From assembly GCA_947650285.1 (NCBI GenBank), contig CANTFL010000430.1:1-64000 (forward strand): a stretch of DNA of 64,000 bases, read 5' to 3'. Positions 3,319-36,922 of the stretch are shown here, one piece after another. Source of the stretch: Hyaloperonospora brassicae (lineage: Eukaryota > Oomycota > Peronosporomycetes > Peronosporales > Peronosporaceae). The notes beneath the pieces are model-generated. The model did no database searches. It was not told where the DNA came from and saw only the letters and a program-made list of their open reading frames with translations. Positions within the stretch are counted from its first letter, which is position 1. The number at the start of each line of letters is the position of its first letter. The position numbers and the translations under genes were made by a program.

Positions 3319-3710
3319 TGTAACGGGGCAGCCCGTTACATGGAGTTGTCACTTTATGGAAAGTGACAATAAAGAATATGAAGATGGATATTCTTTTAAA
3401 CAATATCACCAAAGTGGTGATATTGAAGGGTCGACCAAAGAGTCTGTTCATTGGTTGATATCTTGACGATATCAACCCACCAATCGCCGCAAGACGCGCG
3501 CAATGAGTGGTGACGAGACGTCACCATACACTCAGTTAGAGTAACATGATTAAGTTAAGTCAAACAGAGAGACAGTGGTTAAAGACTTAATTATATTAAT
3601 ATAACAGTTCTGCTTTTACCTTATCTACGCTTCCTCGCTTGCCACGTGTACGTCTGTCGGGGCACCCAAAACCCTTGCGTTAAGTTCACGCAAGGGTGTG
3701 CCCCGTTACA
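3319..3710 (+). repeat. Element 1 5' LTR (392 bp)
   Basis: It begins TGTAACGGGG and ends CCCCGTTACA, so the LTR ends form a 12 bp terminal inverted repeat rather than just TG...CA. Internally it is a string of hairpins, for example arms GGTTGATATC/GATATCAACC. It carries the CCACCAATCGC...GTGGTGA core found in the other LTR families here. Confidence 0.95.
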
Positions 3711-3712
3711 CC

Positions 3713-3720
3713 TGGTAGCA
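3713..3720 (+). promoter_or_regulatory. Primer binding site (TGGTAGCA)
   Basis: It lies two bases after the 5' LTR. The 8 nt TGGTAGCA are the complement of UGCUACCA, the 3' end of a typical eukaryotic initiator tRNA-Met. Elements 2 and 4 have the same 8 nt at the same distance. Bases beyond the eighth do not follow the usual initiator sequence, so the tRNA assignment is inference. Confidence 0.7.
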
Positions 3721-3743
3721 CTTTGTAGTCCTTCCAAGGACCA

Positions 3744-3773
3744 CATCATCCAACATGAACATGTTGGATGATG
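3744..3773 (+). other. 14 bp-arm hairpin spanning the gag start codon
   Basis: CATCATCCAACATG is followed by AA and then its exact reverse complement. The gag ATG at 3755 lies in the left arm. The counterpart in element 4 (29584-29613) has changed CATCAT/ATGATG to CATCG/CGATG, so both strands of the stem changed together and pairing was kept. Confidence 0.85.
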
Positions 3774-4911
3774 AAGAGACCTTTCACGCCACGCGTGAAG
3801 GGTTAACCCATTTGAGTGACATCGAATGGGGTGCGGTAGAACGAATGAGTTCTACCGTAGGCGAGTTCGTCGTTAGCGCCATGTTGGAGTCTCTAGACAG
3901 AGACCAACAACATGCCGCTATCGCCAAGTTCATTCAAAATGAACTTGCTCGTCGAGAAGGGAGAAAGTAGCCTTGCTTCACCAGCAAGGCTCTCAACAGG
4001 CCGAGCAGTTGAGAGAACTCGGTGCTCAACAGACAGAGCTGTTGAGACAGCAGCAATTCCATGCTGCTGTGGGCGGGACGGCGCATGCGCGTCGTTCCGA
4101 AGTCATGAAAGTTGACATCTCCAAGTACAGTGGAGTCCCGGAAGACTCCCTGTTACTATGGTTTGTCGAACTCGACAGAGCCTTAAGGGCTCGTCGCGTC
4201 GAAGATGAGCAAATGAAACTCACATTTGCTCAGACCCACTTGGCAGGACGTGCCAAAACTTGGTCCCTGGGCCTCGAGAGTAGCGACCCACATGTGTTTA
4301 GGTCGCTAGATGACTTCAAGTCCCGGCTCAGACAAACGTTTGAGCCGCCACGGGCTGAGTTCAGGGCTCGTTCAGAGCTCCTGAAACTCAAGCAGGGTAA
4401 GCGTGATGTGCACGCTTACGCACAACATATACGACTCCTTGCGAGTAGTATAACTGCTAACCCAGTCCATGAACACACGTTGATTACGGTGTTCATGCAA
4501 GGGCTCGCAGAAGGGCCCGTCAGGAGCCACCTGTTCCGCCTTGAGCTGAATACGCTGGAAGATGCGATATCAGCCGCGGAACAGGAAGACTTTAGCATGA
4601 GACAGGCTCATGCCAGCTCAAACTCTTATCGTCCACCGAGACGACAAGAGATCGGAGGTCCAGAACCAATGGACCTCTGCTATGTTGAGAGCGAGAGACC
4701 TCGCTCTTCGATCAACAAGCGATTGCAGAGGTGCAATCGCTGTCAGAAGTTAGGGCACTACGCACACGAGTGTAGTGCTCCACGCCCAGTACCAAACAGT
4801 ACTGAGCGAAATGGACGACCATTTGCCAGAAACGGCAATGGGCGTGGGTCCAGCGCTGTTGCGAAGCCGCAACAGCGAGACGGACCATCAAAAAATGGTC
4901 GGGGTCAGTAG
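3755..4911 (+). pseudogene. gag: Element 1 gag (capsid + CCHC zinc knuckle), frameshifted
   Basis: This is the structural polyprotein that forms the intracellular particle and binds element RNA. The frame opens at ATG 3755, hits TAG at 3968-3970, and resumes in another frame (through 3967 onward) to TAG 4909-4911. A single small indel near 3966 explains this, because element 4 reads across the same point in one frame. The second part has a retrotransposon capsid region (roughly residues 40-190 of the second frame: F..L.L..G.A..W...L, then ...F....R...L...KQGK.....YA). It ends with a zinc knuckle, CNRCQKLGHYAHEC, matching C-x2-C-x4-H-x4-C, followed by a basic tail. A frameshift signal lies at its 3' end. 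Confidence 0.9.
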
Positions 4912-4929
4912 GGGCGGAGCGCCCTACTG
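4890..4929 (+). promoter_or_regulatory. Probable -1 programmed frameshift site at gag/pol junction
   Basis: In the gag frame the heptamer A AAA AAT lies at 4890-4896 and fits the X XXY YYZ rule. A 9-nt spacer (4897-4905) follows, then a hairpin pairs 4906-4914 with 4921-4929, with one bulged base; the gag TAG (4909-4911) is in its left arm. Moving back one base enters the pol frame, which is open from here into the protease. In element 4 the stem and stop are kept (30711-30734), but the heptamer reads A ATA AAC and no longer fits. The arrangement is seen in the sequence; function is inferred from known retroelement recoding sites. Confidence 0.72.
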
Positions 4930-5585
4930 ATCCAGCAACCTCAAGAGAATTTGCAAATCTCTTGACGAAAGTTGCTCCAGATACACAATCATTGTGTGTC
5001 TCTGCACCTGGTGATGACGTTTCGCTCATCACCTTGAAGTTGGAAGCGACAAATGATTTGTCGCTTCGTGCCCTAGTAGACTGTGGGGCGTCGAACAACT
5101 TTGTTCGACGCCAGTCACTAGAGGGTCGTAGGCTCAAGTTCGTTGAGCGCGACATTCCCCTCACAAGGATGACGGTGCGCCTTGCAACAGGCGCATCGAT
5201 AACCGTTGAGAAACGTGTAGTAGGAATCCACTACACGTTAGAGGGCGAACAGTACGATGATGACTTCATCGTACTAGATCTGGATGACAAATTTGATGTC
5301 ATCCTGGGATTACCTTGGCTCAGAAAGTACGAGCCAAGGGTGAGCTGGCAGCATCGATCCGTGAAGATGCCTGCTGCTTGTTCATCAGATGGCCATCTGA
5401 TGAACATCTTGGAGCGTCCACAAGCGTGTGGATGTTCTGCGAGTGAGTGCGATGGCCTCACTTGCGGTACGGTCGTTAGCACGACTGCACAAGATCACAG
5501 TGTAGTTGATCACTACACTGTGGAGCAAGCTCCCGGCGGCTGTACAGAGAGTACAGGCTGCGCCGAAGGTCCACCACTCGAATAA
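4912..5585 (+). pseudogene. pol: Element 1 pol: aspartic protease segment
   Basis: This is the protease that would cut Gag-Pol. The frame is open from the gag stop region. The catalytic loop reads VDCGASNNFV (D-C-G-A where many relatives have D-S-G-A), and the flap-side motif ILGLPWLRKYEP is typical of Ty3/gypsy proteases. After about residue 150 the protein becomes a variable linker, and the frame ends at 5583-5585. The continuation lies in another frame (5506-6330), so a small indel between 5506 and 5585 breaks pol here. Element 4 carries a homologous protease at 30740-31308. Confidence 0.85.
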
Positions 5586-7123
5586 GTCGAGTGGACCGGG
5601 ACATGGATGCATGCCTAGTGGGCAGCATCTTAGAAGAAAGAAACCTGTTGCCTCCAAGGGGCAACATGGAAATCCTAGGTCGACTGGAGAGTCGACCGTA
5701 GAGGATCGGTGCCTGACTGTGGTTGCACAGCCACAGTCGGAAGACGTCGAGGGAATAAGTCCCCACGTACTTGAGGAAGGAATTCCTCAAGAGTCACTTG
5801 CTGAGGGATTAGGCCCTCAGCAACCTGTGGAAGCAAGTTCCCAGGAAGAAACCGGGACGTTGAACGTCTTGGTCAATGACGGATCAAGTGTAGGCGCTTA
5901 TACGCTTGATCTGATTGTGCCTCCGAAGTTGACTTCGGAGATAACTCAGTTGCCAACGCTAGAACCGAAACGGTTCTTGCGTGATCTGCGTAGTGGCAAA
6001 GTCAAGCAGATCTGCATACTCGTCACAGAGGATGAGTATGTGGACGATATTTGGTCGGCCACAGTATTTGCTGAGAACGAACGGGTTCTCAGCAGCTCAT
6101 CGATGGACGAAAGTGTCCTCGATGAGAAGACTCGGATTGAGCGATACACGTCTCAATCCTGGGAGTCACTTCAGGCAAATCCTTTGTATAAGGATTTGAT
6201 CGAATTCAAGGATGTATTCCCTGAATCCGTGCCTTGCGAGTTGCCTAAGGACAAAGGCACTCGACACGAGATCGAGCTCAAACCGGGCTCGAAGTACTGT
6301 GTCATGAATCAGTGGCCACTGGCCTCGTGAACAAGTGATAGCGATCGACAAGTTCTTTGCCGATCGTTTAGCAGCGGTTCATGTGAGGGAATCGACATCC
6401 CCTCACAGCTCTCCGACCTTCTGTGTGCGAAAGGCCACAGGAGGGTGGCGGATAGTGCACGCATTCAACAAATTGAATGCTGCAACGGTACCGGCTCAGA
6501 CGCCGATACCGAGGAAGGACGTCATCATAGATGGTATGTCAAAGAGTACCATCTTTTCGTCCATGGATCTGATGGATGGGTTCTATCAGATCCTGATGCG
6601 TGAACGGGACATCCCGTTCACGGCAGTGAGTACCCCCAGCGGGATGCTGTGGGAGTGGCTAGTGATGCCACAGGGGCTGAGCAATGCCCCTGCAACATTC
6701 AACAGATGTGTAACAAGTCTGTTGAGACCGGTGCGAGACTTCGCACCGAGTTACTTCGACGATGTGTTCGTCCATAGCCGGGCTATGGACGGAAAGACGG
6801 ACGTTGAAGTTCACAGAACTCACGTTCGTCAGGTTCTTCAACTTATGCGCAAGCATAAGTTGTACGCCAACCTCAAGAAGTGTATATTCGCGGCTAGCGA
6901 AATACCACTTCTTGGGTGCATCGTGGGTAAACACGGCGTACGCCCTGATCCCGAAAAGATCAAGGCGATCACCGACTGGCCAGTGCCAGTCGATGTCAAG
7001 GGACTAAGGAAGTTCCTTGGTCTAGCGGCGTACTTGCACAAGTACTCGCGCAACTACGCCGAGATGACTGGTTCATCTTTCTTGCTTGCTCAAGAAAAAT
7101 GTCAAGTGGTCATGGAACGCTGA
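5586..7123 (+). pseudogene. pol: Element 1 pol: linker and reverse transcriptase, frameshifted
   Basis: The linker continues to a stop at 6330, caused by one extra G near 6321 (CTGGCCTC where element 4 has CTGCCTC). The reverse transcriptase resumes at about 6335. It shows the substrate strand FYQIL, the segment LPQG-like MPQGLSNAPATF, and the active site YFDDVFVHS with both metal-binding aspartates. The connection domain ends in FLGLAAYLHKYSRNYAEM. A further single-base change near 7065 moves the downstream part into another frame, where the reading continues from 7086. The reverse transcriptase motifs themselves are undamaged. Confidence 0.92.
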
Positions 7124-8827
7124 GTGCCAGCGTTCCTTTGAAGGTATCAAGCAAAGCTTGATGCAATCGCCCATCTTGGCGATTGCAGATCAGGACAGAC
7201 CATTTCATGTGGTCTGTGACGCCAGCGATTTCGCAATCGGCTGTGCGTTAATGCAGTTCGATGCAGATGGCGCGGAGCGCGTCATCTGTTATCAGTCGCG
7301 TCAGCTGCAAGCAGCTGAGCGTAATTACCCAGTGCATGACAAGGAACTCCTTGCCATGAAATACGCACTGGCTAAGTTTCGCGTCTATCTCTTGGGAGAT
7401 AGACCGTTTGTTGTCTACACGGACCATGCGTCATTACGCACGGCCGTAAACAGCCCACACCTCTCGCAAAGAATGGCGAGGTGGCTGTCTTTCTTCGCGG
7501 AGTATAACTTCTCCGTGGAGTATAAACCAGGACGACTCAATGTCGTCGCTGATGCGCTTTCGCGCCGGCCCGATTTCGAGCCGGACGCACAAATCAACAG
7601 TGAGGATAAGCCCACTGTTGCGACACTGTCAGTCAGTGTCCCGTCGTCAAGTTTACTTGACGACGTACGAAAGGCATACGCGGAAGATAAGGATCTTCTG
7701 CGATTGATGGATCATCTGGTGAATCCATCCAGTAAATCCATGAGGGATTTACCGGCTTTGTACCGATCCTCATCGGATCGGTATAGTACACGCAACGGAT
7801 TGCTGTACTATACAGCTGTTGCCGACGACACGCCTCGTGTCGTCGTACCCGCTCATCATGATTTGCGTTTACGCATCATGTATGAGTGTCACGATGCCCC
7901 AACAGGCGGCCATCGTGGTAGAGAAAAGACTTACCTCACGGTAAGTCGTGACTTTTACTGGCCCCGCCAGTATCAGTTTGTCCGCAAGTACATACGTGCT
8001 TGCGAGGTTTGTCAACGGGTGAAGCCTAGTCCTTCATCCCGTGCGCCATTGCAGCCTCTGCCTGTTCCGACAGAGTGCTGGCAGTCCGTTTCAATGGACC
8101 TCGTCTTCGGTTTCCCCGAAGACGCTCACAAGAATAATGGTATTCTTGTGTTTGTTGACCGATTCAGCAAGATGGTCCATCTTGCTGCTGTCCCTGAGTC
8201 GATCAAGGCTCAAGGTTGTGCTCGTGTCTTTCTAGACACGGTCTTTAGACTCCACGGGTTACCCCGTGACTCGTATCCGACCGTGACCCTCGGTTCACGG
8301 CGGCATTTTGGCAAACCGTGTTCCGTACTCTCGGAACACGATTGAAGATGTCCACTTCTGACCATCCAGAAACAGATGGTCAGACGGAACGTGCGAACCG
8401 TGTCCTCGAAGAGATTCTTCGAGGATATGTCCACTCGTTTCCGAGTTGGAGCGAATTCCTACCCATGGTGGAATTCGCCATCAATAATTCGGTGCATGCT
8501 TCAACACAGCACACACCGTTTTACGTGAATGGCCTACGCCATCCACGTGTGCCCACCCTTCTAGAGTGTGACTCTTGGATAAGGGGGGAGGGACTCGCTC
8601 GAGCAAAAACCGTTTTGGCTCTTGCTCATCACGTGTCGACGCTAACGTCGTTACGTATGATGCCGATGTCGATCAAGTCGACATCGATGAAGAAGATCAC
8701 CTCAATAATAGCGATGACGCTATTATTGACTCGGATGATGATGACGATGCTGGTATATTCAGCATCGTCAACGATTATGCCAGCGAGGAAGAAGACAACC
8801 TCGCTGAAGAAGAGAGCAATCTCTTAG
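7086..8827 (+). pseudogene. pol: Element 1 pol: RNase H and integrase core, frameshifted
   Basis: RNase H motifs appear in order: VVCDASDFAIG, HDKELLA, YTDHASL and VADALSRRP. The integrase follows with an H-H-C-C zinc domain (H...H, then CEVCQRVKP) and the first catalytic aspartate in SMDLVFGFPED. The frame is lost near 8268, where CCGTGACTC lacks one A relative to element 4, so the second aspartate motif (SDRD in relatives) is read out of frame up to a stop at 8345. The correct frame resumes at 8318 with MSTSDHPETDGQTERANR, which holds the catalytic glutamate. After about 8560 the plus-strand frames become low-complexity. Confidence 0.92.
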
Positions 8828-9809
8828 CAGTGCGCACGAAGCGCACTGACAGACAAAACAAAGAGTCAGCAGAGAACTTCCTGCTGACTCGAGAAGCGGT
8901 AGTCCGTTTCGTTCAGGACTCCATCGCAAATGCGGTGGACCGTCAGAAACGGAACGCAGACAAGAATGGAAGAGCAAATGTTCTTTCATTTAAGGTTAAC
9001 GACCTAGTACTACTGTCTACGGTAAACCTACCTGGACATGCAGTCACTAGTGTCGGCAGTAGTAAACTACTGCCGAAATACATTGGGCCATTTCGAGTGT
9101 TGCATCGCAAGGGCAATGCATACACGACTCGAATTGCCACGTAAGATGCGCACTCATCCTACGTTTTACGTGGGGAGGCTTAGGTCGTACTGTCAGTACG
9201 AGCCTTCTTCTTCCGATGAAGATAGCCCCCACGTTCAAGAACATCCATCAAGTTCTTGCGTTCGCGCTCCAGACGATCCGTCTGGTCGCGCAGATATGAT
9301 ACCTCGGTACTCCACCGAGATATCTCCCCGCGAGCTGTCGCCAGCTCGCCGAATAGGGAGCGCACATCCCGCTCGACCTGAAGCTGCGCTGTGGCATAAT
9401 CGGCGCGATCCCTCGCCCGATCAGCCTCGTGACCCTTGCGGTTCTTCCGCACGGTGTCGGTCAAAGCGTAGCGCCGGTCGCGCTCGTGCTTCAAGTCATC
9501 GCGCAATTCATCGATTGCGCGATCCATCTCGTAAGGGTCGAGATAGTGAGCCTGAATCATCTGGAGGAGGTCTTTCCTCCTCTACCACATCCTTTGGTGG
9601 ATGCGCACGGTGATCAACGCTTTCTAGTGGAGCGTATCTTGAATCACCGTGACGATTCAGGATCAAGGACGAGCTACCTCGTCCAGTGGCGGGGGTATCC
9701 ACCCTCTTGGAACAGCTGGGAGCCCCGCTCTCAGCTGTTGATGGATGTTGAAGGTCTCGTCCGCCAGTATGACGAGACCCATCCGATGAGTCCTGTGGCC
9801 CATCGGTAA
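8575..9809 (+). pseudogene. pol: Element 1 pol: integrase C-terminus and chromodomain
   Basis: An acidic stretch (DSDDDDDAGIF) and a helical block lead to the integrase GPF/Y-like module (KYIGPFRVLHRKGNAY). The next 100 or so codons are rich in S, R and P, and here the minus strand encodes a coiled coil instead. The chromodomain occupies 9615-9786: FLVERIL...[18 protein letters not shown], with the aromatic residues expected of a chromatin-binding cage. It ends at TAA 9807-9809. A frame change near 9135 (ACACGACTCG, one base longer than element 4) and another before 9600 split the segment. Chromodomains in this position define chromoviruses and bias insertion toward marked chromatin. Confidence 0.9.
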
Positions 9810-10788
9810 ACACGCACTCTAGGCGCTTGTAGACGGATTGCAAGTTTGCAATCGCGTCACGCATCTCAGCCGAGATGTGTGCCCTTCCCCAGGGCGAATC
9901 AAGGGAATAGACATTCCTATGTGCACGCTGCGAGTTGTCAACACAACTCGCACAAGGGTCTCTTCAAGTGAGGCAATGAATGTCTGCCTCACCCGACAAA
10001 CGATGCAACCGGTACCTTGCACCGGTTGGCGTTCGCCTTTCGAACCTGAGGCGTGTCGCCTCAAGTTTCTTGAGCCACCCTTCTCGTCCAAATTTCTTTA
10101 CGTTTTGGACGAACGCGTTCCACGCAGCCAAAAGCAAGGCCTTGTCACGCTTTTGGTTGCTGTTGTACCATCGATGTCTAAGGAAGACATCGAGATAAAA
10201 GTCTTCCTCAGCGCGAAAGTTCTTCGCGCTGGAACTCAAGCCGTGAAGCTCGGTTGCATCGAATAAGGGTATTCGATGGTGTTGGCCTGTCTCGTGAGAC
10301 AGGCTATTGATGAGCCGTTCGGGCAAACGCCACGGCTCCAACTCATCACGCTTCACAGTGGTACCCTTGTCGGTTCCACGACTCCCAGATTGACGACGGC
10401 TCGCGCCATCGTCATCACGCTCGTGCGAAGACGCACGAGCCGGCGGTGGTGAGGAATAGAATTCCTCACCACCCTGATCATCATCATCACTGCCGAACAG
10501 ACTGTGATGCAAATCACGAGTCCTTTCGTTCGGCAGTGGTCTTGGAGAATACTGAGGCGTCGCAGGTGAGCGAGACGCCTCTGGAGCATTGCCCGAGTCA
10601 GACACGTCTGACTCGCCAGAGTAGATGACCTCTACATCAAGGTCATCGTGCGCACGCGGTGTGATACCGCGTGCACCTGCAGCACCTGTTGCTGCAGGCG
10701 AAGAAGGGGCGGCAGACGACGAATCGTCTGCCTCAGAGGCTGGCACAGCACCGGGCTGTGTGGGTCTTGAGTCACCTCGCATAGACAT
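9180..10788 (-). pseudogene. Antisense ORF of element 1 (acidic N-terminus, helical core, coiled coil)
   Basis: The minus strand is open from ATG 10788, 131 bp inside the 3' LTR, to TGA 9964-9966 (274 aa). It continues in the same frame to about 9555, then in a shifted frame to 9180. The first 130 residues are Ser/Pro/Asp/Glu/Arg-rich with VEVIYSGESDVSDSG. A helical core follows (RDELEPWRLPERL ... AAWNAFVQNVKKFGREGW). The end is a charged coiled coil (DELRDDLKHERDRRYALTD and onward). The core is about 70 percent identical to the antisense ORF of element 4, although 9810-10900 has no sense reading frame. The 3' half overlaps the integrase tail and chromodomain. I do not recognise the family, and its role is unknown. 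Confidence 0.8.
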
Positions 10789-10882
10789 GTTAACTATGCG
10801 AGGTCAAGCGGAAAGTGAATGGATTGGACCCAACAAGTGCTCCCTGTCCCAATGGTGGCCAACGGGTGGCCTCCATATTTTC

Positions 10883-10903
10883 GATAGTCACACGGTGACT
10901 ATC
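10883..10903. other. Perfect hairpin next to the polypurine tract
   Basis: Arms GATAGTCAC and GTGACTATC are separated by 3 nt. The same hairpin is present at 36444-36464 in element 4, at the same place between the antisense start and the polypurine tract. Confidence 0.85.
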
Positions 10904-10907
10904 AGTT

Positions 10908-10919
10908 AAGGGGGGGTGA
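10908..10919 (+). promoter_or_regulatory. Polypurine tract of element 1
   Basis: The sequence AAGGGGGGGTGA lies immediately before the 3' LTR. It is the expected primer for plus-strand DNA synthesis. Confidence 0.85.
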
Positions 10920-11310
10920 TGTAACGGGGCAGCCCGTTACATGAAATTGTCACTTAAGGAAAGTGACAATAAAGAATATAAAGATGGATATTCTTTAAAC
11001 AATATCACCAAAGCGGTGATATTGAAGGGTCGACCAAAGGGTCTGTTCATTGGTTGATATCGTGATGATATCAACCCACCAATCGCCGCAAGACGCGCGC
11101 AATTAGTGGTGACGAGACGTCACCATACATCCAGTTATATCAGTATAGTTAATCTAAGTCAAACGAAGAGACAGTAGTTAAAAGACTTAATTATATTAAT
11201 ATAACGGTTTTACTTTATACCTTATTTAAGCTCCCTCGCTTGCCACGTGTACGTCCGTCGGGGCACCCAAATCCCTTGCGTTAAGTTACGCAAGGGTGTG
11301 CCCCGTTACA
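10920..11310 (+). repeat. Element 1 3' LTR (391 bp)
   Basis: It has the same ends and core as the 5' LTR but roughly 30 differences. The base after it (11311) begins GGTGC, which does not repeat the left flank ATCCC. Confidence 0.94.
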
Positions 11311-18924: not shown

Positions 18925-19061
18925 CGAAGAAGAAGCTACGGCGATAGAGCGAGTACGCCTCGGAGAAAGGGTGAGTGAAGCGATATACGTCTCAGATACG
19001 GACACCTATCCTCCATCTCATGTTCTTTGCCTAGCTCATTCGCGTCTCTTGACTCATCTTG

Positions 19062-19598
19062 TGTAACGGGGTTACACGTCGACTGGTAGTCGACGATAGG
19101 TGTGGTGCACACAAGAAAGGGATACCCTGTAAAATGATAGTAGAACACTGTAAGTGTATGAATTGTTGAAGACTGATGTCTGTCAGCAATTGATTACGAG
19201 ATCTTTAGAGAGGTTTTACTTTGAACCTTAGTGACTAGGTTAAGTACGTTGTTCTATGGTGTTCTTTAGGTTTAAAGAAGAAATAAAATTCAGTTCCTCT
19301 TTTGATCAATAAGAGACACGTGCCTTACGAGGCGTCTTTGATCGGTAGGACAAAAGCAACGCCTGTAAAGGTAGCTTGTCCTCGAGCACTCTGTGCTGTG
19401 ATTCGTTTGAATCGTTTGGTCCCTCTGGAACGGGGACCTTAAGCTCTCTGAGCTTGTTGACTCTATGAGTCGGGTTCTCTGAACCAAAACCTTATCTCTA
19501 ATAGCTGTTGACTCTCTGAGTCGGGTTCTGTGAACCAAAGTTGCTCGTGAGAGCGTTCAGTCTTCCTCTGACTTAAGGAGCTGTGTAGCTCCGCTACA
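19062..19598 (+). repeat. Element 2 5' LTR (537 bp)
   Basis: It begins TGTAACGGGGTTACACG and ends GCTCCGCTACA. The right part is a run of small palindromes such as GACTC-TAT-GAGTC and GGTTC-TCT-GAACC. Confidence 0.96.
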
Positions 19599-19600
19599 CT

Positions 19601-19608
19601 TGGTAGCA
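19601..19608 (+). promoter_or_regulatory. Primer binding site of element 2
   Basis: TGGTAGCA lies two bases after the LTR, identical to elements 1 and 4. Confidence 0.7.
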
Positions 19609-19669
19609 CTCGTAGTCAATCTACGCCCGAGTCGTTACGACTGACCCTATGCGAGGATGGAGTAATCCA

Positions 19670-20616
19670 CACCCCTCAATGAGGCCCAAAAGGTTGCGCT
19701 AGATAAGCTAACCGCGGCCGTTGGCCCATAGTATGTTGAGTTTCTCGCTACACAAGGTCCCGACGTGCTCAATGCGCGTGTCGAGACCCTTATGCGGTAT
19801 GAAACGGCCCTTTAAGGGCAGGTTGAGAACCAGGTAGCGTCGGCTATGCCCACACGCTTTGTGGCTATGCCAGACGAAGAGGCTAAGCCTCGTCCTCTTC
19901 GGGTGGACGTTAACCATTACTCCGGGAAGGAGGGTGAAAACCTCACCCTCTGGATCCGAGAGATTGAGATGGCCATGAGATCTGGCTTGATCTCAGTCGA
20001 GCATCAGCGAGTATCGCTGGCGATCTCAAAACTAGATGGAAGAGCTAGAGAATGGGCTCTGACGTGCGGCACGTCGGTCGACTTGGCGTTTTCCACATGG
20101 AATTCGCTCAAGCTAGACCTGTTGCGAGTTTTCTCGCCGCCTAACCAGGCCTATCGCGTGCGTTCACGCTTCTTGTCTACCCGTCAGGGTAAGAACGAGT
20201 TAAACGACTATGTCCAAGAGTTCAGAACTCTTATGGCTGCTATGCAGTCTGACCCTCTCCCTGAGACTGTCTTCGTGACAGTCTTTATGGAAGGTCTCCG
20301 CACTGGCGCTGCCAGGACCGAGGTGTTTCGAGTCCATCCCTCGACTTTTGAAGAGGCTGTGAGCAACGCTCAAAATGCTGAGCATAACGTTTAGTCAGCG
20401 AGACTTGGTTGGAATGGGTACAACCCAAGCTTTGCGAGAGCAACCTTTGCAAGCACCTCGGCTTACTGTAAGCCAGAACCGATGGATCTCAGCTATGCTG
20501 AAGATGAAGGTGAAGCGGATCTTCATGTTGCAGAGCAACGACAGGAAGTGAGACGTTGTTATACGTGTGGAAGTACCAAACATCTACGCCCCACTTGTCC
20601 TTTGCGTAAGCAATAG
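19670..20616 (+). pseudogene. gag: Element 2 gag with CCHC knuckle, stop-interrupted
   Basis: The longest open part starts at ATG 19846. The same frame is readable upstream from about 19670 through a TAG and a TAA, so the true start lies further left. The capsid part reads WIREIEMAMRSGLISVEHQR...LDGRAREWAL and F..PNQAYRVRSRFLSTRQGK. A TAG at 20392 precedes the tail, which contains the zinc knuckle CYTCGSTKHLRPTC (C-x2-C-x4-H-x4-C). It is clearly related to, but well diverged from, the gag of elements 1 and 4. Confidence 0.85.
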
Positions 20617-20766
20617 CGTAGCCCTATGGGCCGCAACCAGAAACCTGGTATGGCACGGGGAAACGTCGACACCCCGTAGGCGTGGGGTGCCCTACTGGGG
20701 TCGAACTGAGTTCTGTCACTTCTCTACGAGGTAGAGCATAACAAGGGCTTCGCCCCACAGATCTCC

Positions 20767-21674
20767 GTGCCAGCAAGCACAGAGCGTGGGTACAAGCCTG
20801 GCTTGCTAGTCGCCGAGGTGATAGTTAAAGGCTTTGAGAAGCACTCGTCGATATTAATCGATTCTGGGGCTTCATGCAACTATGCTAGACGCCGTTCCCT
20901 TGAGAGGAGTCAGCAATATGCTGCGTCGATCAAAGCGCACGACGGTGATTCCATCACTGTTCGGTTAGCGACGGGTAGTCGCGTTACTGTGCCTTAAGTT
21001 CCGTTGAACCTCCGCGTGAAGTTTTTGGACTTTGATAGCACAAAATATGTCTTGTCCTTGACTTGGATTAAAGATACGATTTTTTCCTAGGCATGGCCTG
21101 GCTTGAACGCCATGAACCATGGATCGATTGGAGGTCTAAGACCTTAGGCGCAACGCGCAATGTTATTGGTGAAGTTTTGGAAGGTCATGAACCCACCTTC
21201 GCTAGGCAACAAAAGCGCTATTGGCGCGAGCCATTGACGGAAGATGTCAATGTGCTGGACATTGGTATGTCGGCGTTGATTAACTCGGATATTTATGACA
21301 TAAATATTGAGCGGAGATCTTCTAACGTATTTGATGAGACTTGTACTCCGTTGAGTGATACTCGTTGTGATAATGAGTCACTGCATGCGTCAAGCATGAT
21401 TGAACAAGGGCCGGGACATAAGGAATGTAATTCCTCTGATGTGAGTGGGGTGGCTTGTAAAATTTCACCGAGTGAAGGCGGCCGAGTAGGCACCACACTG
21501 AATGTCGGTAATGACATTGATGGCGATAAGCCAGAGTGTTCAGGGCTAGACCCGATTGCTGTACGTGAAGTGGTACGTGTAAATCCACTGGGTGAAGTGT
21601 TCGAAGTACGTACCACTTCACCAGATGTCGATCAAGACATGAGCTCTCGTATAGAGCGTGCTATAGCAGATTAG
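20767..21674 (+). pseudogene. pol: Element 2 pol: protease and linker
   Basis: The protease active site reads LIDSGASCNYAR, followed by ITVRLATGSRVTVP, with a TAA at 20995-20997. Sense continues in the linker (MAWLERHEPW from 21093) to a TAG at 21672-21674. That stop comes from one extra T that element 3 lacks (GCAGATTAGC against GCAGATAGC), so it is private to element 2. From 21441 the sequence is almost identical to element 3. Confidence 0.85.
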
Positions 21675-23201
21675 CAACTACAGGTACCCTACTGTCCCGG
21701 CCTCTAGGAGGCGTAAGGTTTCTTTGAGAAAACAATCTAGGCGTCGGGTGGCAACTGTCAAGCGCCAGACGTCCGAGATGTTAAGGAGTGATAATAGTAA
21801 TAATACACTATATACACTTGTCAATGGGTTGAATGGCCAGATTGATGGCAATATTAGTCCGGAGACTCTTCTATCCTTGGATACTCTCTTTGACCTAGAC
21901 GAAATGTCTGACGGCGAATTCAGCCAAGCCTTAAAGGCAGGAGAGTTATCCGACTTAGTGGTCATTCGACCCGATGTTGAGTTGAACTCAGCCTCTTTAT
22001 TGGACGAGTCAGTCCTTGAGGACACAAAGGCAACACTTAGTGCGCGTAGTGGAGATTCTATCCTTAAGGATCCTCTTGATCCGTTTTATCCTTTGGCAAA
22101 GGAATTTCAAGACGTGTTGTGTCACAACCCACCGTCCGTCTTGCCTCCTGATAGAGCTGTACTTCATGAAATTAACTTGGTTCCTGGAACTTAAATACTG
22201 CGTAACACGGCTGTGGCCTTTACCAAAGGAGCAGTGTGACGTCATTGACGACTTCTTTCGTGCAAAGCACGCGGCAGGAATGTCAAGTGAGAGCAAATCT
22301 CTCCATTCCACACCGACCTTCTGTGTCAAAAAGCCCAATGGGAAGTGGCGCATTGTTCATGCTTACAATAAGCTTAATGCGGCCACCATCCCGGCTCAGA
22401 CACCAATTCCGAGGAAGGATGTTCTTCAGAACAATATGGTGGGATGTACAATGTACAGTGCGCTCGACTTAGTCGATCGTTATTACCAGATTCTCATGCG
22501 AGAAAGAGATATTCCGCTGACAGCGGTCAGCACTCCAAGCGGTATGCTCTGGGAGTGGCTTGTTATGACACAAGGGTGATAAAATTCCCGGCTACATTCA
22601 ATCGCCTCGTGACACAATTGTTCATACCTCACCGAGGATATGAACAGACGGACTTTGATGACATCTTTGTCCATAGTCGTGCTATGAACGGTCGGTCAGA
22701 TGTGGACAATCACATCGACCATTTACGAGCGGTGCTCGACTGCATGCGCACGAATAAGCTGTACGCCAACGCGTCTAAGTTTACCTTTAGTGCAGAAGAG
22801 ATTCCCTTTTTAGGGTTCTTCATTGGTAAGCGAGGCCTTAGATTGGATCCCGCTAAGGTAAAAGCCATAGTTGATTAGCCAGTTCCAAAAACCAAAAAGA
22901 CTTACGTAAGTGGCTTGGCCTTGCCAATTACTTGCACAAATACAGTGCGAATTACGCAGATATGGTTCGGCCATTATCCAATCACCTTAAAAAGGATGTG
23001 GAATGGTGCTGGACTACCACCGAGCATGATGATTTTCAAGCAGTAAAGGAAAGTCTCCGTCATGCGCCAATCTTGGCTTTGCCTGATCCTGATCGATCAT
23101 TCAGTGTCGTCTGTGACGCACATGATTTTGCCATTGGCAGCGCCCTGTTGCAGACAGATTCTGGTGGACGGGAACGCGTCATTGCGTTTGAATTCCGGTA
23201 G
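21675..23201 (+). pseudogene. pol: Element 2 pol: reverse transcriptase and start of RNase H
   Basis: The reverse transcriptase reads STPTFCVKKPNGKWRIVHAY, then YYQILMRERDIPLTAVSTPS. Its active site is TDFDDIFVHS, with F in place of Y before the two aspartates. Stops at 22192-22194, 22577-22579, 22876-22878 and 23199-23201 interrupt it, and all four are also present in element 3. RNase H begins with VVCDAHDFAIGSALL. The changes include a missing LSNAP segment after MTQG, so a deletion accompanies the second stop. Confidence 0.9.
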
Positions 23202-23252
23202 CTGAAGGCTGCAGAAAAGATCTATCCAGTTCATGACAAAGAGCTACTTGCG

Positions 23253-24476
23253 ATGAAGTATGCTTTAGTCAAATTCAGAGTTCATCTTCTTGGCTCTAAG
23301 CCGTTTGTGATCGATACAGATCATGCGTCACTACGCACTGCGACCCATTCGCCTCACCTCTCTCAGAGAATGGCTCGTTGGATTTTCTTCTTTGCCGAGT
23401 ACTACTTCGAGGTGAAGTATAAACCGGTCAAGCAGAATGCTTTGGCTGATGCGTTGTCACGCAGGCCTGAATATGAGATTGCTCATGTTACGACTCTATT
23501 TTTTTCGGTCACTGACCTAATCCGTACGGCATATGCCAAGTATGAACACTGTGTAGCTCTGCTACGTGCTCTGGAAAACGAGGAGTTTAAGGACTCGGAC
23601 ATAGAATTGTCGGCACGAGTACGTGCGAGGTTACATCAATATTCCATCGATCAAGGCCTGTTGTGCTATAGCACAGATGTGGAGGATACCCCTCGCATCG
23701 TTGTCCTTTATGATGAGAGGTTGAAGTATCGGATACTCTATGAGGCACATGATACTGCCCTGAATGGTTTTCTCGGTCGAGAGAAGACCTACGGCTCAGT
23801 TAGCCAATACTGTTGGTGGCCCAAACAATACAAATGGGTGAGCACATATGTGCGTACGTGTGAAACGTGTCAACGGGTGAAACCCTCACCTAACGCGGCC
23901 GCGCCGCTGGCTAGTTTGTCTATACCCAAGGGGTGTTGGGAGTCCATCAGTATGGACTTCCTGTTCGGATTACCGGAGTATTTGTATGGAAATACGGGTA
24001 TTGTGATATTTGTTGACCGTTTGAGCAAGATGTCTCATTTCTCAGCGGTGCCGGATACCATTGATAGCAAGGGTACAGCTACGCTGTTTATCGATCGCGT
24101 GTTTCGACAACACGGTTTGCCGTTGGCAATTGTCTCTGATAGAGATCCTCTCTTCACTGGGAAGTTTTGGAGGTCCATCTTCAAGGTTCTCGGCACACGT
24201 TTGGACATGTCCACATCGGATCATCCGCAGATATATGGTCGAACCGAGCGAGTCAATCGCATCATCGGTGACATCTTGCGCAGTGTTTGCACTGAAACGC
24301 CGAAGCGTTGTAGTGCGATGCTCCCTGTCGTTGAGTTTGCGTTAAATAACGCTGTTCACGCCTCTACAGGCTTTATACCGTTCTACGTGAACGGTCTCAC
24401 ACACCCTCGCGTTCTGTTAACGCTACCACTGCGTGTTTCAGGGCTTGAGGGGAGGAGTTACCTATCGGCTTGCTGA
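23253..24476 (+). CDS. pol: Element 2 pol: RNase H end and integrase core (open)
   Basis: This is the longest intact pol frame of family B (407 codons). It holds the RNase H tail (DTDHASLRTA, LADALSRRPEYE), the integrase zinc domain (H...H, CETCQRVKP) and a complete catalytic set: D in SISMDFLFGLPE, D in AIVSDRDPLF, and E in GRTERVNR. The integrase would insert element DNA into chromatin. The frame is only a piece of pol, because upstream stops separate it from the reverse transcriptase, and I see no start signal of its own. The matching frame in element 3 (14842-14045) is shorter, because a change near 14850 stops it. Confidence 0.85.
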   Translation: MKYALVKFRVHLLGSKPFVIDTDHASLRTATHSPHLSQRMARWIFFFAEYYFEVKYKPVKQNALADALSRRPEYEIAHVTTLFFSVTDLIRTAYAKYEHCVALLRALENEEFKDSDIELSARVRARLHQYSIDQGLLCYSTDVEDTPRIVVLYDERLKYRILYEAHDTALNGFLGREKTYGSVSQYCWWPKQYKWVSTYVRTCETCQRVKPSPNAAAPLASLSIPKGCWESISMDFLFGLPEYLYGNTGIVIFVDRLSKMSHFSAVPDTIDSKGTATLFIDRVFRQHGLPLAIVSDRDPLFTGKFWRSIFKVLGTRLDMSTSDHPQIYGRTERVNRIIGDILRSVCTETPKRCSAMLPVVEFALNNAVHASTGFIPFYVNGLTHPRVLLTLPLRVSGLEGRSYLSAC

Positions 24477-25295
24477 TATCAGCCCTGCTACTGTTCAGAA
24501 ACAAGTAAGAGAGTTTCTCGCAACGCTATTGAATGTCTTACGACACGTGCGTGGTGCACTGGCTGATAGCCAAGAGAAACAAAAAGAGCAAGCTGACGTT
24601 AAAGGCAGAGGATGTATTGAAAGTTATAAGGTCGGACACCAAGTTCTACTCAATGCTAAAAACCTACCTACGAATGTAGTCTTTGCTGTCTTCAAGACAA
24701 AGTTGCGTCTGCGCTCCATTGGGCCGTTCACAGTCATCGCTAAGAAGGGATTGACGTACACGCTCAACCTTCCGCGCAAACTGCGTACACAATTCGTTTT
24801 CTACGTTGGCTTGCTTGAGTCGTATCGTGACCCGTCCCATGTGAACTCGGAGGCGCTTGCGCCTGGAAATATGGCCTTGACGTCGACTGTTGCATCCGAA
24901 CCAGGGGGCCAAGCTGACCATCCACACGGGCTTGGCCTAACTCCAACACCTCAACACGGGCTTGCATCACGCCGAGCGCACTCTGGGTCTTACCCAATGT
25001 CTCTCGGAGACCACTCAGCTCACGGAGCACCTTCTATGCTCCTCCTTCGGTACCCCGACCACCACGGACGCTGCTCGATGAGCAAGGGAACCACCAGTTC
25101 CATGTGGAGAAAACCCTTCAGCGACGTCATCGTCGTGGCCAATACCAGTATCTGGTGAAGTGGCGAGGGTACCCGGAGTCGGAGAACTCGTGGGAGTATG
25201 AGATACCCCTTCGGCAGGACTGCCCTTACGCCGTGGATATTTTTGAACATCGTGACCAGGGTCGCCTTGCGAACGAGAACGCTTCTCACCAATAG
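24433..25295 (+). pseudogene. pol: Element 2 pol: integrase C-terminus and chromodomain
   Basis: The frame at 24433-25158 covers the integrase C-terminal part (RSIGPFTVIAKKGLTYTLNLPRK). Another frame from about 25079 to 25295 has the chromodomain FHVEKTL...YQYLVKWRGYPESENSWE. The two are separated by a frame change around 25040-25100. From about 24545 on, similarity to element 3 drops sharply. The minus strand of this same stretch carries the C-terminal coiled coil of the antisense ORF. Confidence 0.88.
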
Positions 25296-26115
25296 TGGTG
25301 GGAGGTAGCGTGTTGCTCCGCACCTTAGGGTCGTGACCCGTGATTGCCATTGTAGCCGGAGCATAACGCGTACCTATACGCAACTGGCCCCTGGCCTTGA
25401 GTTTGGCATACTCGAACCGAAGATTTCGTTCCAACCGAACGTCGGCCACATCGGCTCTGGCCCGCAGCGCTGGCACACTTCTAAAGTGTCGCTTGCGATA
25501 CACCCAACGGATGAACTGATTGTCCTCCTCCTCGGGAAGTTCGCCAGCGAACAACAAGATGGGCACGCCTTTAATCGGTCGAACCGAGACACCACGAGAC
25601 AAGCTCTCAAGATGCGCGCGGTACTGACCTTGCGTGGTAAAGAATGGCTCGAGATATCTCTCATTTAGAGCCTGACGAACGGCTATATCTTCGGGCGACG
25701 TAGCCTCGGGGCCCATGGCCCATGTTGAAAGGCTACGGCCTTCCGTTTGACGGAGGCGTTGCTCCACGTCAGGTGTTGTATATACGTAACCACTTCGGTT
25801 TTGAATAACCGTCTGGGTATGAGTGCGACGTAGAGCACGCTCCTCACGCTGGAGGGTTAACTCCTGTTGATCGTCGAGCGGGTTTGTGATGATGTTCTCA
25901 TCCGCATCTGTTGTATGATGCTGCGCCCCTGGCGCTGTGGTAACACCACGTCTAACGAACGGATTCGGTGCTCTTAGGGGTCGAGCCTCAGATACAGCGG
26001 AGTGGGACGATATCCCTTCGTCTCCAGGGACACTGTTTTCACTACCATAGTTCACATTCTCATTGAGACCGAGGTAGGAGGAAAGAGTCCGAGACTCGTT
26101 GGGTGGCGATGCCAT
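24764..26115 (-). CDS. Antisense ORF of element 2 (366 aa) plus coiled-coil extension
   Basis: A minus-strand ORF of 366 codons runs from ATG 26115 to 25015. It starts in an excellent ACCATGG context 108 bp inside the 3' LTR and is uninterrupted. Near the N-terminus is LSSYLGLNENVNYGSE. A middle Gln/Arg-rich helical part follows (QQELTLQREERALRRTHT), then a conserved core (FIRWVYRKRHFRSVPALR) and a Ser/Thr/Pro-rich tail. A second open frame (25030-24764) overlaps its end and encodes a coiled coil (GVMQARVEVLELGQARVDGQ). It matches element 3 and, in layout and a short N-terminal motif, the antisense ORFs of elements 1 and 4. It lies opposite the chromodomain. No family is recognised. Confidence 0.78.
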
Positions 26116-26211
26116 GGTGTTTCGTGTTTTGCCACCGTGATGTTAAGCGCACACACACACCGACCTCTTCGAGAAAACAAACCGATTGACGTTTTGTGGT
26201 AACGTCAGCCT

Positions 26212-26223
26212 GGTGGGGGAGGG
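26212..26223 (+). promoter_or_regulatory. Polypurine tract of element 2
   Basis: GGTGGGGGAGGG lies directly before the 3' LTR. Confidence 0.85.
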
Positions 26224-26760
26224 TGTAACGGGGTTACACGTCGACTGGTAGTCGACGATAGGTGTGGTGCACACAAGAAAGGGATACCCTGTAAAGTGAT
26301 AGTAGAACACTGTAAGTGTATGAATTGTTGAAGACTGATGTCTGTCAACAACTGATTACGAGATCTTTAGAGAGGTTTTACTTTGAACCTTAGTGACTAG
26401 GTTAAGTACGTTGTTCTATGGTGTTCTTTAGGTTTAAAGAAGAAATAAAATTCAGTTCCTCTTTTGATCAATAAGAGACACGTGCCTTACGAGGCGTCTT
26501 TGATCGGATGGACAAAAGGAACGCCTGTAAATGTAGCTTGTCCTCGAGCACTCTGTGCTGTGATTCGTTTGAATTGTTTGGTCCCTCTGGAACGGGGACC
26601 TTAAGCTCTCTGAGCTTGTTGACTCTATGAGTCGGGTTCTCTGAACCAAAACCTTAGCTCTCTTAGCTGTTGACTCTCTGAGTCGGGTTCTGTGAACCAA
26701 AGTTGCTCGTGAGAGCGTTCAGTATTCCTCTGACTTAAGGAGCTGTGTAGCTCCGCTACA
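26224..26760 (+). repeat. Element 2 3' LTR (537 bp)
   Basis: It is the same length as the 5' LTR with about 12 substitutions. It is followed by the target duplication TCTTG. Confidence 0.96.
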
Positions 26761-29098: not shown

Positions 29099-29103
29099 GT
29101 CAC

Positions 29104-29544
29104 TGTAACGAGGTAGCTCGTTACGTGAGATTGTCATTAAAACAATCTGACAATAAAGAATATTACGCTGAATATTGTTTTAACAATATAACAAGACATG
29201 GTGATATTATTGGGATGACCGAAGGGTCTACTCATTGGTTGATATCGTGATGATATCAAACCACCAATCGCTGCTAGACGCGCGCGATGGGTGGTGAGTA
29301 GACGTCATCATACATTTAGTTAGATTAGTATAATTAAGTCAGGACAACAGGGATTCAAGGAGTAATAGGACTTAATTATATTAATACAGTTTTACTTTTA
29401 CCAAGAGACTAGTCTGACTACTTAGTCTTCTTTCCTTCCTCTGTGTTTCCTTGAACACCTAGCAGGGCACTGTCGACCACTGTCGTCAGTGGAAGTATAC
29501 TCCGTACTGGTCAACCAATACGTAGTCAACAGTGCCCCGTTACA
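29104..29544 (+). repeat. Element 4 5' LTR (441 bp)
   Basis: It begins TGTAACGAGGTAGCTCG and ends GTGCCCCGTTACA. It shares the CCACCAATCGC core with families A and C. Confidence 0.95.
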
Positions 29545-29546
29545 CC

Positions 29547-29554
29547 TGGTAGCA
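29547..29554 (+). promoter_or_regulatory. Primer binding site of element 4
   Basis: TGGTAGCA lies two bases after the LTR, as in elements 1 and 2. Confidence 0.7.
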
Positions 29555-29594
29555 CTTTGTAGTCCGTCCAAGGACCACAACTCCATCGCCCAAC

Positions 29595-30716
29595 ATGAAC
29601 ATGTTGGACGATGTAGACGGCGACAGCTTTCACGGAACCCGTGAAAGCTACTCCCATGTGAGCGACATCGAATGAAGTGCGATCGAACGAATTAGTTCAA
29701 CCGTTGGCGAGGAAGCCATGTGAGCCATGCTATCCTTAAGAAATAGGGACCAGCAACACGTCAGCATTAGCAAGTTCTTGCAACGAGAACTTGATGAGTC
29801 GCGAGCGCAGGTGACCTTGTTTCAACAACAAAATCACTAGCGTATCGAAGCACTGAGACTACACCAGTCTCAGTCGGCAGAGCCGACGCGTGAGCATCGA
29901 CGGGAGTCTCTAAAACTAGAGGTCTCCAAGTATCGGGGAGTCGAGGAAGACTCCCTGTTGAGGTGATTCGTCGAGCTAGACGATGCCATCGATGCTCATC
30001 GCATCAGAGATGAGCGAATGCAAGTCTCATTCGCTCAGTCTAACCTGGCAGGAGAAGCCAGAGCTTGGGCCCTGAATCTCCAGTTGCACGACCCAAATGT
30101 GTTTGGGTCGTTAATGATTTTTAAGACCCTGCTCAGTGAGACGTTCGAGCCTCCCAGAGAAGAGTTCAGGACTCTTTCAGAGCTCCTGCAAATCAAGCAG
30201 GGTAAGCGTAAGGTTCACGCTTACGCTTAACATGTACGCTACCTTGCAAGCTGCATGGTAGTGAACCCTGTGAGTGAGTTTGTGTTGATCACAATCTTTA
30301 TTCAAGGGCTATCAGACGGTCCCGTTAGGGACCACCTGTTCCGCGGAGAGCTAAAGACGCTCTCAGAGGCAATCTTCGCAGCGGAACAAGAAGATTATAG
30401 CGTGAGACAGTATCACGCTACGTTGACCCCGCATCGTCCACAGAGACGATTAGCAGTCGGAGGTCCAGAACCAATGGACCTCTGTAATGTCGAGAGCGAG
30501 AAACCTCGCCCTGCATATGACAAGCGAATGGTGAGATGCCATCGCTGTCATAAAGTGGGACAATACGCATATGAATGCAGTATTCCCCGCTCAAAATCTC
30601 GCGGTGCTGAGCGCAGTGTTCACCCACCAGCAGCAAGAAATGGAGGGCGAGGGTCCGTTGCTGTTGCGAAGTCTCAACCGCGAGGTGGACCATCAATAAA
30701 CGGTCGGGATCAGTAG
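29595..30716 (+). pseudogene. gag: Element 4 gag, stop-interrupted
   Basis: It starts at ATG 29595 inside a conserved hairpin. Stops occur in the N-terminal part and in the capsid region (for example before 29967 and near 30230). The capsid frame reads QVSFAQSNLAGEARAWALNL and later EPPREEFRTLSELLQIKQGK. The tail has the knuckle CHRCHKVGQYAYEC, in which the histidine expected before the last cysteine is replaced by Y or shifted, so metal binding is doubtful. It ends at TAG 30714-30716 inside the gag/pol hairpin. Confidence 0.88.
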
Positions 30717-30739
30717 GGCGCTCCGCCCCTACTGGTCTA

Positions 30740-31308
30740 GCAACATCAAGAGAATTTGCAAATCTCCTGAAGAAGGTAGCTCCCGACACAATATTTCTGT
30801 GTGTCTCTGCACCAGTGATGAGGTGCCACTCATCACCTTGAAGTTAGAAGTGATAAAAGACTTGTCACTTCGAGCCCTAGTTGACTGTGGGGCGTCGAAC
30901 AATTTTGTTCGTCGCCATTCGCAAGAGGCAGATAGATTTGACTTCGTGGAGCGGGAGATCCCTCCAACGAAGATGACGGTGCGCCTAGCGACAGGCGCAT
31001 CGATCACTGTGAAGAAACGTGTAGTCGGAATCCACTACACGTTAAGAGGCGAACAGTACGATGATGATTTCATCGTGCTTGATCTAGATGACAAGTTCGA
31101 CTTCATCGTAGGGTTGCCTTGGCTCAGGAAATACGAGCCAAGGGTGAGTAAGCAGTATCGATCGGTTACGATACCTGCCACTTGTTACTCAGATAACCAC
31201 CTGACGAATATCAGGAACGCCCACACTCACGTGGGTGTACTACGAGTGAGTGCGATGACCTCACTTGTGGTACGGTCGTTAGCACGACTGTACAAGAACA
31301 CAATGTAG
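30740..31308 (+). pseudogene. pol: Element 4 pol: protease
   Basis: It has the active site VDCGASNNFVRR and the downstream motif IVGLPWLRKYEP, as in element 1. A one-base loss just before 30799 separates it from the natural pol frame, and it ends at 31306-31308. Confidence 0.85.
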
Positions 31309-31322
31309 ATGATCACTACATT

Positions 31323-36349: not shown

Positions 36350-36443
36350 GATAACTATGCGAGGCAACGTCAGGAGTTAATGTATCTGACCAAACAGGTG
36401 CTCCCTGTCCTACTGGTGTTCAACGGGTGGCCACCAAGTTTTC

Positions 36444-36464
36444 GATAGTCACACGGTGACTATC
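36444..36464. other. Hairpin next to polypurine tract, element 4
   Basis: Arms GATAGTCAC and GTGACTATC are separated by 3 nt, as in element 1 (10883-10903). The polypurine tract AAGGGAGGGGTGA follows at 36469-36481. Confidence 0.85.
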
Positions 36465-36481
36465 AGATAAGGGAGGGGTGA

Positions 36482-36922
36482 TGTAACGGGGTAGCTCGTT
36501 ACGTGAGATTGTCATTAAAACAATCTGACAATAAAGAATATTACGCTGAATATTGTTTTAACAATATAACAAGACATGGTGATATTATTGGGATGACCGA
36601 AGGGTCTACTCATTGGTTGATATCGTGATGATATCAAACCACCAATCGCTGCTAGACGCGCGCGATGGGTGGTGAGTAGACGTCATCATACATTTAGTTA
36701 GATTAGTATAATTAAGTCAGGACAACAGGGATTCAAGGAGTAATAGGACTTAATTATATTAATACAGTTTTACTTTTACCAAGAGACTAGTCTGACTACT
36801 TAGTCTTCTTTCCTTCCTCTGTGTTTCCTTGAACACCTAGCAGGGCACTGTCGACCACTGTCGTCAGTGATAGTATACTCCATGCTGGTCAACCAGAACG
36901 TTGTCAACAGTGCCCCGTTACA
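36482..36922 (+). repeat. Element 4 3' LTR (441 bp)
   Basis: It pairs with 29104-29544 and is followed by the target duplication GTCAC. Confidence 0.95.

Follow-up and report, generated by a model that had tools for sequence, protein, structure and literature searches.

Can a mobile element be written throughout as short perfect hairpins and still encode its proteins, and what would keep it in that form? The question is raised by the first 64,000 nucleotides of contig CANTFL010000430.1 in the 100.56-Mb genome assembly of the oomycete Hyaloperonospora brassicae (GCA_947650285.1), hereafter the window. A preliminary description of this DNA had claimed that element 1, a long terminal repeat (LTR) retrotransposon of the Ty3/gypsy type, is a continuous chain of such hairpins. 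We counted perfect inverted repeats with arms of at least 7 bp and loops of 3-15 nt, which defines a hairpin below unless stated otherwise, and took the mean of 20 dinucleotide shuffles as the baseline. The results showed 134 hairpins in element 1 (16.8 per kb) versus 5.95 in shuffles, and 72 versus 0.55 when arms of at least 9 bp were required. Hairpins occupied 40% of the element, compared with 2% of shuffled sequence. The density was about equal in the LTR and leader (16.0 per kb), gag-pol (16.2) and the 3' region (18.0), and the 13 hairpins listed earlier as examples were all exact, with arm lengths as given, confirming a dense chain in all regions.

The same density was found throughout the family to which element 1 belongs, family A. 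Element 3, a member of another subfamily, carried 98 hairpins (29000-36900) versus 4.55 expected. All 20 whole copies fetched from the assembly held 125-140 hairpins each, flanks included; those with identical LTRs held 136-140 in 8.2 kb, including flanks of about 100-200 bp. An RNase H profile search, in which 150 of 3511 candidates were scored and 30 loci fetched, recovered 24 pieces of family A and 6 of a second gypsy family, B. The density was 10.6-17.6 hairpins per kb in all 24 family-A pieces, with copy L054 the lowest, and 0.3-0.9 in all 6 family-B pieces. We then made 200 synonymous-codon shuffles per coding piece, preserving the protein and the codon counts. All nine family-A pieces (seven from element 1, two from element 3) exceeded the maximum of their shuffles: gag had 15 hairpins (shuffle mean 1.26, maximum 5), the protease frame 13 (mean 1.31), the reverse transcriptase (RT) frame 12 (mean 0.90), the RNase H-integrase frame 23 (mean 1.64, maximum 6) and the pol tail 7 (mean 0.83), and the tightest of the nine had 4 against a maximum of 3. 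These findings bear out the earlier proposal that synonymous choices are bent toward self-pairing.

The controls placed element 1 far above both codon-preserving shuffles and host genes. The host GH30 gene had 2 hairpins (shuffle mean 2.2), two other host stretches had 9 and 5 (7.0 and 7.5 in shuffles), and all three control coding pieces, from GH30 and twice from family B, lay inside the synonymous-shuffle range. Family B had 27 hairpins versus 10.2 expected in 14.3 kb; one copy had 3 in its 500-bp LTR, 7 in the next 1.44 kb, 7 in the 4.2 kb of pol and 1 in the last 1.1 kb. The limits set in the preliminary description therefore held for GH30 and family-B pol, both near chance, but not for element 3, which has the trait, nor for family B as a whole, which has it mildly. 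In five more RT domains, read as four non-LTR (LINE-like) types and a single distant LTR type, we counted 0 or 1 hairpin each versus 0.28-0.58 expected. A third gypsy family, C, with an RT 74% identical to that of family A over 165 aa, was represented by one copy only (L064 and L066, G000:C14:91766-94200), which had 21 hairpins in 2435 bp versus 1.68. Of its 12 hairpins that could be mapped to family A, 3 lay at homologous pairs; the hairpins of the two families are thus mostly non-homologous, indicating that the trait turns up again in a related family, at new sites.

We examined hairpin geometry in L016, a copy with identical LTRs. About 42% of its sequence lies within hairpins, and the excess of arms over shuffles at 5, 6, 7, 8, 9, 10, 11 and 12 bp was 46, 34, 20, 34, 37, 32, 10 and 2, with none longer; element 1 also holds arms of 13 and 14 bp. 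A single arm-length peak was rejected, as the excess is large at 5-6 bp, dips at 7 and rises again at 8-10. Among arms that reach 10 bp or more, 12 of 44 extend further, near the 25% expected by chance. The commonest loop length was 4-5 nt. With arms of at least 8 bp and three shuffles, loops of 3-15 nt gave 102 stems versus 1.7, loops of 16-60 nt 18 versus 5, and loops of 121-380 nt 37 versus 23.7, while loops of 61-120 nt showed no excess (3 versus 7.3); the enriched pairing is mainly local. Density was even along the element (7-11 hairpins per 500 bp), and regular spacing was rejected, the placement being indistinguishable from random. A fixed span fitted to 25/26-nt small RNAs was also set aside: spans peak at 23-26 nt, yet the tighter bound seems to lie on arm length, and 25-mers show only a modest rise in self-folding. 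We further dropped the idea that one-mismatch stems are nearly absent, which came from a strict 5+1+5 filter, since a wider count of stems of length 10 found 17 with G.U, 20 with A.C and 20 with other mismatches, versus 44 perfect ones.

Silent sites were more constrained in stems. With hairpins defined in L016, we scored divergence at fourfold-degenerate sites between L033, L054 and element 3, each the single copy representing its lineage. Between L033 and element 3, 9/123 stem sites differed (0.073), versus 43/252 outside (0.171) and 10/28 in loops (0.357). The corresponding values were 6/110 (0.055), 43/235 (0.183) and 6/25 (0.24) for L054 and element 3, and 12/122 (0.098), 43/253 (0.17) and 8/30 (0.267) for L033 and L054. 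In the same order of comparisons, stems differed from outside sites at P = 0.011, 0.0014 and 0.086, and from loops at P = 0.0003, 0.0096 and 0.030. Across six lineage comparisons, fourfold divergence outside was 1.7-3.4 times the stem value, and loops diverged most. Among the copies, private substitutions per column were 0.143 outside, 0.115 in stems and 0.155 in loops, and shared substitutions 0.071, 0.035 and 0.077. We also sorted 1039 polarised variants into those found in a single copy, in at least two but no more than half of the copies, and in more than half. Hairpin losses fell from 172/704 through 37/199 to 11/136 (first versus last class, P = 7e-6), and gains were 29/704, 4/199 and 15/136 (P = 0.0025). 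At non-coding and fourfold sites together, single-copy versus above-half variants gave losses of 32/140 versus 2/44 and gains of 3/140 versus 5/44. This frequency pattern can be explained by selection or by a replication bias in each cycle.

Covariation was scored at L016 stem pairs in element 3, L033 and L054. The results showed that 41 of 55 double changes preserved the pair, where chance was assumed to give about 40%, and 7 of 11 did so within the copies. One-sided differences outnumbered compensated pairs in element 3 (160 versus 23), L033 (39 versus 9) and L054 (70 versus 9), 269 versus 41 in total, and a comparison of LTRs gave 13 one-sided pairs and no compensated one. Part of the one-sided differences is decay after insertion. 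Codon damage by hairpins was considered and rejected: against 60 homologues, conserved residues deviated at 2/64 positions in stems versus 12/234 outside, and at 0/17 at stem edges. Stems sit in less conserved columns of the same homologues (53% versus 68% conserved).

The folding of both strands was then compared. Across 27 windows of L016, the folding z-score was -5.4 for the sense and -6.1 for the antisense strand; the scores were -4.2 and -4.1 for element 3, -1.6 for family B and 0.1 for host sequence. The minimum folding energy difference (MFED), computed with ViennaRNA on 300-nt fragments with 12 shuffles, was 53% for sense (18 fragments) and 49% for antisense L016, 48% for element 1, 34% for element 3, 11% for family B, 4% for GH30 and 1.6% for host sequence. 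RNA helices would lead one to expect a clear preference for G.U if the sense RNA alone mattered. Stem mismatches shared among copies were G.U in 19 and A.C in 32 cases; in the single lineages the counts were 50 and 32 for element 3 (P = 0.06), 10 and 12 for L033, and 22 and 16 for L054. Pooled over the shared variants and the three lineages, G.U was not significantly preferred over A.C (101 versus 92, P = 0.56). The first pair past stem ends was G.U in 19, A.C in 16 and another mismatch in 80 cases.

A gene on the opposite strand bears on this symmetry. In L016, a single antisense frame of 534 aa (L016:5959-7563, minus strand) overlaps the 3' end of pol, and 10 of the 14 copies examined keep it open. 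Its protein had 12 homologues, three of which cover 93-96% at 43-48% identity; among the weaker ones, two from Peronospora matthiolae showed 40% identity over 76% and 32% over 73%. Further homologues lie on ENA contigs. The longest antisense remnant in element 1 had no Pfam match. Variants at codon positions 1, 2 and 3 numbered 6, 8 and 28 when shared and 32, 26 and 44 when private, and divergence from element 3 was 0.157, 0.150 and 0.204, a weak effect. From its sequence, the frame looks like a real, conserved gene. Family B also has an antisense frame, of 375 aa (25018-26142, minus strand), before its 3' LTR; it was rejected as a homologue of that of family A, BLASTP giving no significant similarity.

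We tentatively favour the reading that strand-symmetric Watson-Crick self-pairing is selected and hinders sense-antisense duplexes and small-RNA silencing. Selection would favour local Watson-Crick pairing on both strands, and sense and antisense RNAs, which as convergent transcripts could anneal, would stay folded on themselves. Duplex formation would thereby be hindered, and the element may escape the small-RNA silencing that double-stranded RNA (dsRNA) triggers. Arm length may be held to about one helical turn because longer arms would gain nothing or would be seen as dsRNA, and strand switching by RT or a host polymerase is a probable source of some perfect stems, which selection would then keep. 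We lean to this reading because of the conserved antisense gene, because Phytophthora transposons are described as sources of 25/26-nt small RNAs (PMC3804510), and because structure has been proposed as a means of dsRNA avoidance: for Q-beta replicase RNAs, strong local structure is proposed to prevent complementary strands from forming dsRNA (PMC6913131). Among the three causes first offered for the hairpins, namely a compact genomic RNA, interplay with RNA silencing and hairpin-perfecting template switching, the second would fit best. We infer that selection, and not just biased copying, maintains the hairpins, with RNA as the target, escape from silencing as the benefit and a limit on arm length.

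Several observations weigh against this reading. Self-folding of small RNAs is partial at best, because just 35-39% of sense-strand 25-26-mers reach a folding energy of -5 kcal/mol or below (17-20% when shuffled, 26-30% in family B). The antisense gene alone is without predictive value for the hairpin trait, because family B has an antisense frame and hardly any pol hairpins. Residual one-mismatch stems of length 10 favour G.U in element 3 (19 to 10) and L033 (10 to 5); there is no such lead in L016 (17 to 20) or L054 (6 to 6), and the pooled count is 52 to 41 (P = 0.30). The rise in hairpin gains with frequency is non-monotonic, given the 4/199 of the intermediate class, and at fourfold sites alone the fall in losses is a trend only (20/80 versus 2/23, P = 0.15). 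Finally, biased copying contributes to the hairpins. Where a hairpin had gained at least two new pairs, the changes lay on one arm in 10 of 14 cases versus 5.7 expected (8 of 12 without two loci that were counted in two lineages). Adjacent derived changes were enriched in stems (odds ratio 1.69, P = 0.014), and pair-making variants exceeded the expectation from other bases (31 versus 19.5 and 48 versus 27.0).

These last traces are what a mutational drive would leave, in which the strand being made, whether by reverse transcription or in host DNA replication, folds back to copy its own arm and then returns. Stems would thereby be perfected and loops inverted, and the element would gain nothing from it. 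Such a drive would also account for the 4 hairpins out of 197 whose loops are exactly inverted (4 nt in L011, 5 nt in L022, 4 nt with only two differences in L054 and L058, and 8 nt in element 3 versus L016), for the one hairpin with multi-base compensation across 4 pairs and for the lack of a significant G.U preference; arm homogenisation and spacer inversion are described outcomes of template switching (PMC8604942, PMC8794818). From the mechanism, we derived the prediction that compensated pairs should dominate, since one-sided differences should be converted or reverted when copying corrects them. The dominance of one-sided differences, in the lineages and in the LTR comparison alike, makes such correction an unlikely main keeper of the stems. 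Few arms exceed 10 bp, and conserved residues are not more damaged in stems. A bias of new pairs toward the 5' arm, expected from fold-back of minus-strand cDNA, appeared in four lineages (18:6) and was not reproduced in the copies (23:25), and it was discarded. As the whole explanation, this drive is unlikely, and the template switching first suggested holds in part: loop inversions, the excess of pair-making variants and, more weakly, some one-arm gains agree with it, but the excess of one-sided over compensated pairs does not.

Less probable still is ordinary RNA structure on the sense strand, selected to make the genomic RNA compact or to package it, as in viruses with genome-scale ordered RNA structure (GORS) or with dispersed packaging signals. 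The strong sense folding, the covariation, the silent-site constraint and the non-significant G.U lead in element 3 would all suit it. Against it, the shared variants of the A1 copies lean toward A.C, G.U is not favoured past stem ends, stems with loops of 61-120 nt are not in excess and the antisense strand folds about equally, which weakens the compact genomic RNA offered earlier. A function at the DNA level, where hairpins formed by the single-stranded cDNA or cruciforms of the inserted DNA would aid strand transfer, recombination or integration, is very improbable: strand symmetry, the lack of a significant G.U preference and the frequent recombination suggested by mosaic subfamilies would agree with it, but even density and random-like spacing do not suggest a site-specific role.

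From the sequence features above it is conceivable, though doubtful, that this retrotransposon clade has evolved a self-shielding genome, each strand a chain of hairpins of about 9 bp that would stay below dsRNA sensors, whose RNAs would resist annealing and silencing while proteins are encoded on both strands.

The features of the window are listed below. Element 1 has direct LTRs and the order gag, protease, RT, RNase H and integrase (the last through its H2C2 domain) of Ty3/gypsy elements, and it is an old copy, with an LTR identity of 90.9% and broken frames. An element 3 frame (34101-35174) encodes a Tf2-1-like SH3 domain and is related to the element 1 pol tail. Directly upstream of element 1, family-A LTR fragments lie in both orientations (1799-3141).

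Features of the window (coordinates in nucleotides)
Feature	Coordinates	Strand	Remarks
Element 1	3319..11310	+	Old family-A copy (Ty3/gypsy LTR retrotransposon) with 134 perfect hairpins
5' LTR, element 1	3319..3710	+	
gag frame	3943..4908	+	Retrotrans_gag, Ty3_capsid; zinc-knuckle match weak, under cut-off
Protease frame	4806..5582	+	RVP_2
Reverse transcriptase frame	6308..7120	+	RVT_1
RNase H and integrase frame	7068..8342	+	RT_RNaseH, Integrase_H2C2
Pol tail, element 1	8572..9141	+	
Antisense gene, element 1	9183..10803	-	Broken into three frames
3' LTR, element 1	10920..11310	+	90.9% identity to 5' LTR
Family B gypsy copy (control)	19061..26522	+	Hairpins near chance in pol, mildly enriched in the LTR and on the gag side
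Element 3	29104..36922	+	Other family A subfamily; LTRs 98.2% alike
GH30 host gene (control)	47680..49767	+	

The element 1 RT had at least 40 scored matches at 98-100% identity, itself included, among 2006 first-look candidates. LTRs were identical (100%) in 6 of the 20 fetched copies, and L016 has gag (384 aa), pol (1614 aa) and antisense (534 aa) frames that are all open; with identical LTRs and open frames, family A is recently active. The opening 22 bases of the L016 LTR form a hairpin themselves. L054 is 87% identical to element 1. In the pol region, L016 and element 3 were separated by a distance of 0.00 to 0.23, depending on the 250-bp window, and the comparison of L016, L033, L054 and element 3 there showed the subfamilies to be mosaic, which points to recombination that is probably frequent. 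The RT-RNase H protein of element 3 shared 84% identity over 88% with a Peronospora matthiolae protein; the other named relatives among the best 120 of 2376 came from Phytophthora, Globisporangium, Pythium, Aphanomyces and Peronospora, which by itself points to an oomycete host, most likely a downy mildew. Relatives were also sought in viral contig and genome contig collections, and none was found there.

Elsewhere in the window, family-B sequence is present in two inverted copies (13771-16849 and 21672-24750), 98% complementary over 3079 bp. The GH30 glycosyl hydrolase (47680-49764) carries a ricin-type lectin domain between two GH30 domains. At the window's end, an inverted repeat of 3505 bp (51506-55010 and 60496-64000), 100% complementary with its arms 5485 bp apart, is either an inverted duplication that arose very recently or a feature of the assembly.

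Family A resembles known systems in part. Like the GORS of positive-strand RNA viruses, it has stem-loops across coding and non-coding sequence, folding beyond dinucleotide shuffles and constraint at silent sites; unlike them, it is an LTR retrotransposon with many perfect 8-10 bp stems, about equal on both strands, and no significant G.U preference. It passes the GORS threshold (MFED 3%; PMC3950689), which with our method family B (11%) and GH30 (4%) pass as well. Its MFED of about 50%, compared with a highest value of 16% among the table rows of that paper, was obtained with a different folding program, step and number of shuffles. Perfect arms, exact loop inversions and, less clearly, some one-arm multi-base changes recall template switch mutation (quasipalindrome correction); in contrast, hairpins fill so much of L016, many are kept between subfamilies up to 23% apart per window, and one-sided stem changes outnumber compensated ones. 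The local structure opposing annealing is shared with Q-beta replicase RNAs and their rule of fewer unpaired GC, but those RNAs evolved in vitro with an RNA replicase, whereas family A is a retrotransposon. Ty3/gypsy elements with extra antisense frames, such as the plant Retand, likewise combine gag-pol with an antisense frame, which in Retand reportedly also lies on the 3' side. A literature search limited to open-licence papers found no precedent for a hairpin-chain retrotransposon.

If the favoured reading is true, family A would be a case of extreme whole-sequence nucleic-acid structure in a DNA-integrated element, alongside sense and antisense genes, with a folding excess about 3 times the highest GORS value among the table rows of PMC3950689, the methods being different. 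With many copies in one genome and the hairpin-poor sister family B as a control, it is a good test bed for weighing selection against templated mutation in the making of a structured genome. It would also be a natural test of whether folding on both strands can conceal a mobile element from RNA silencing.

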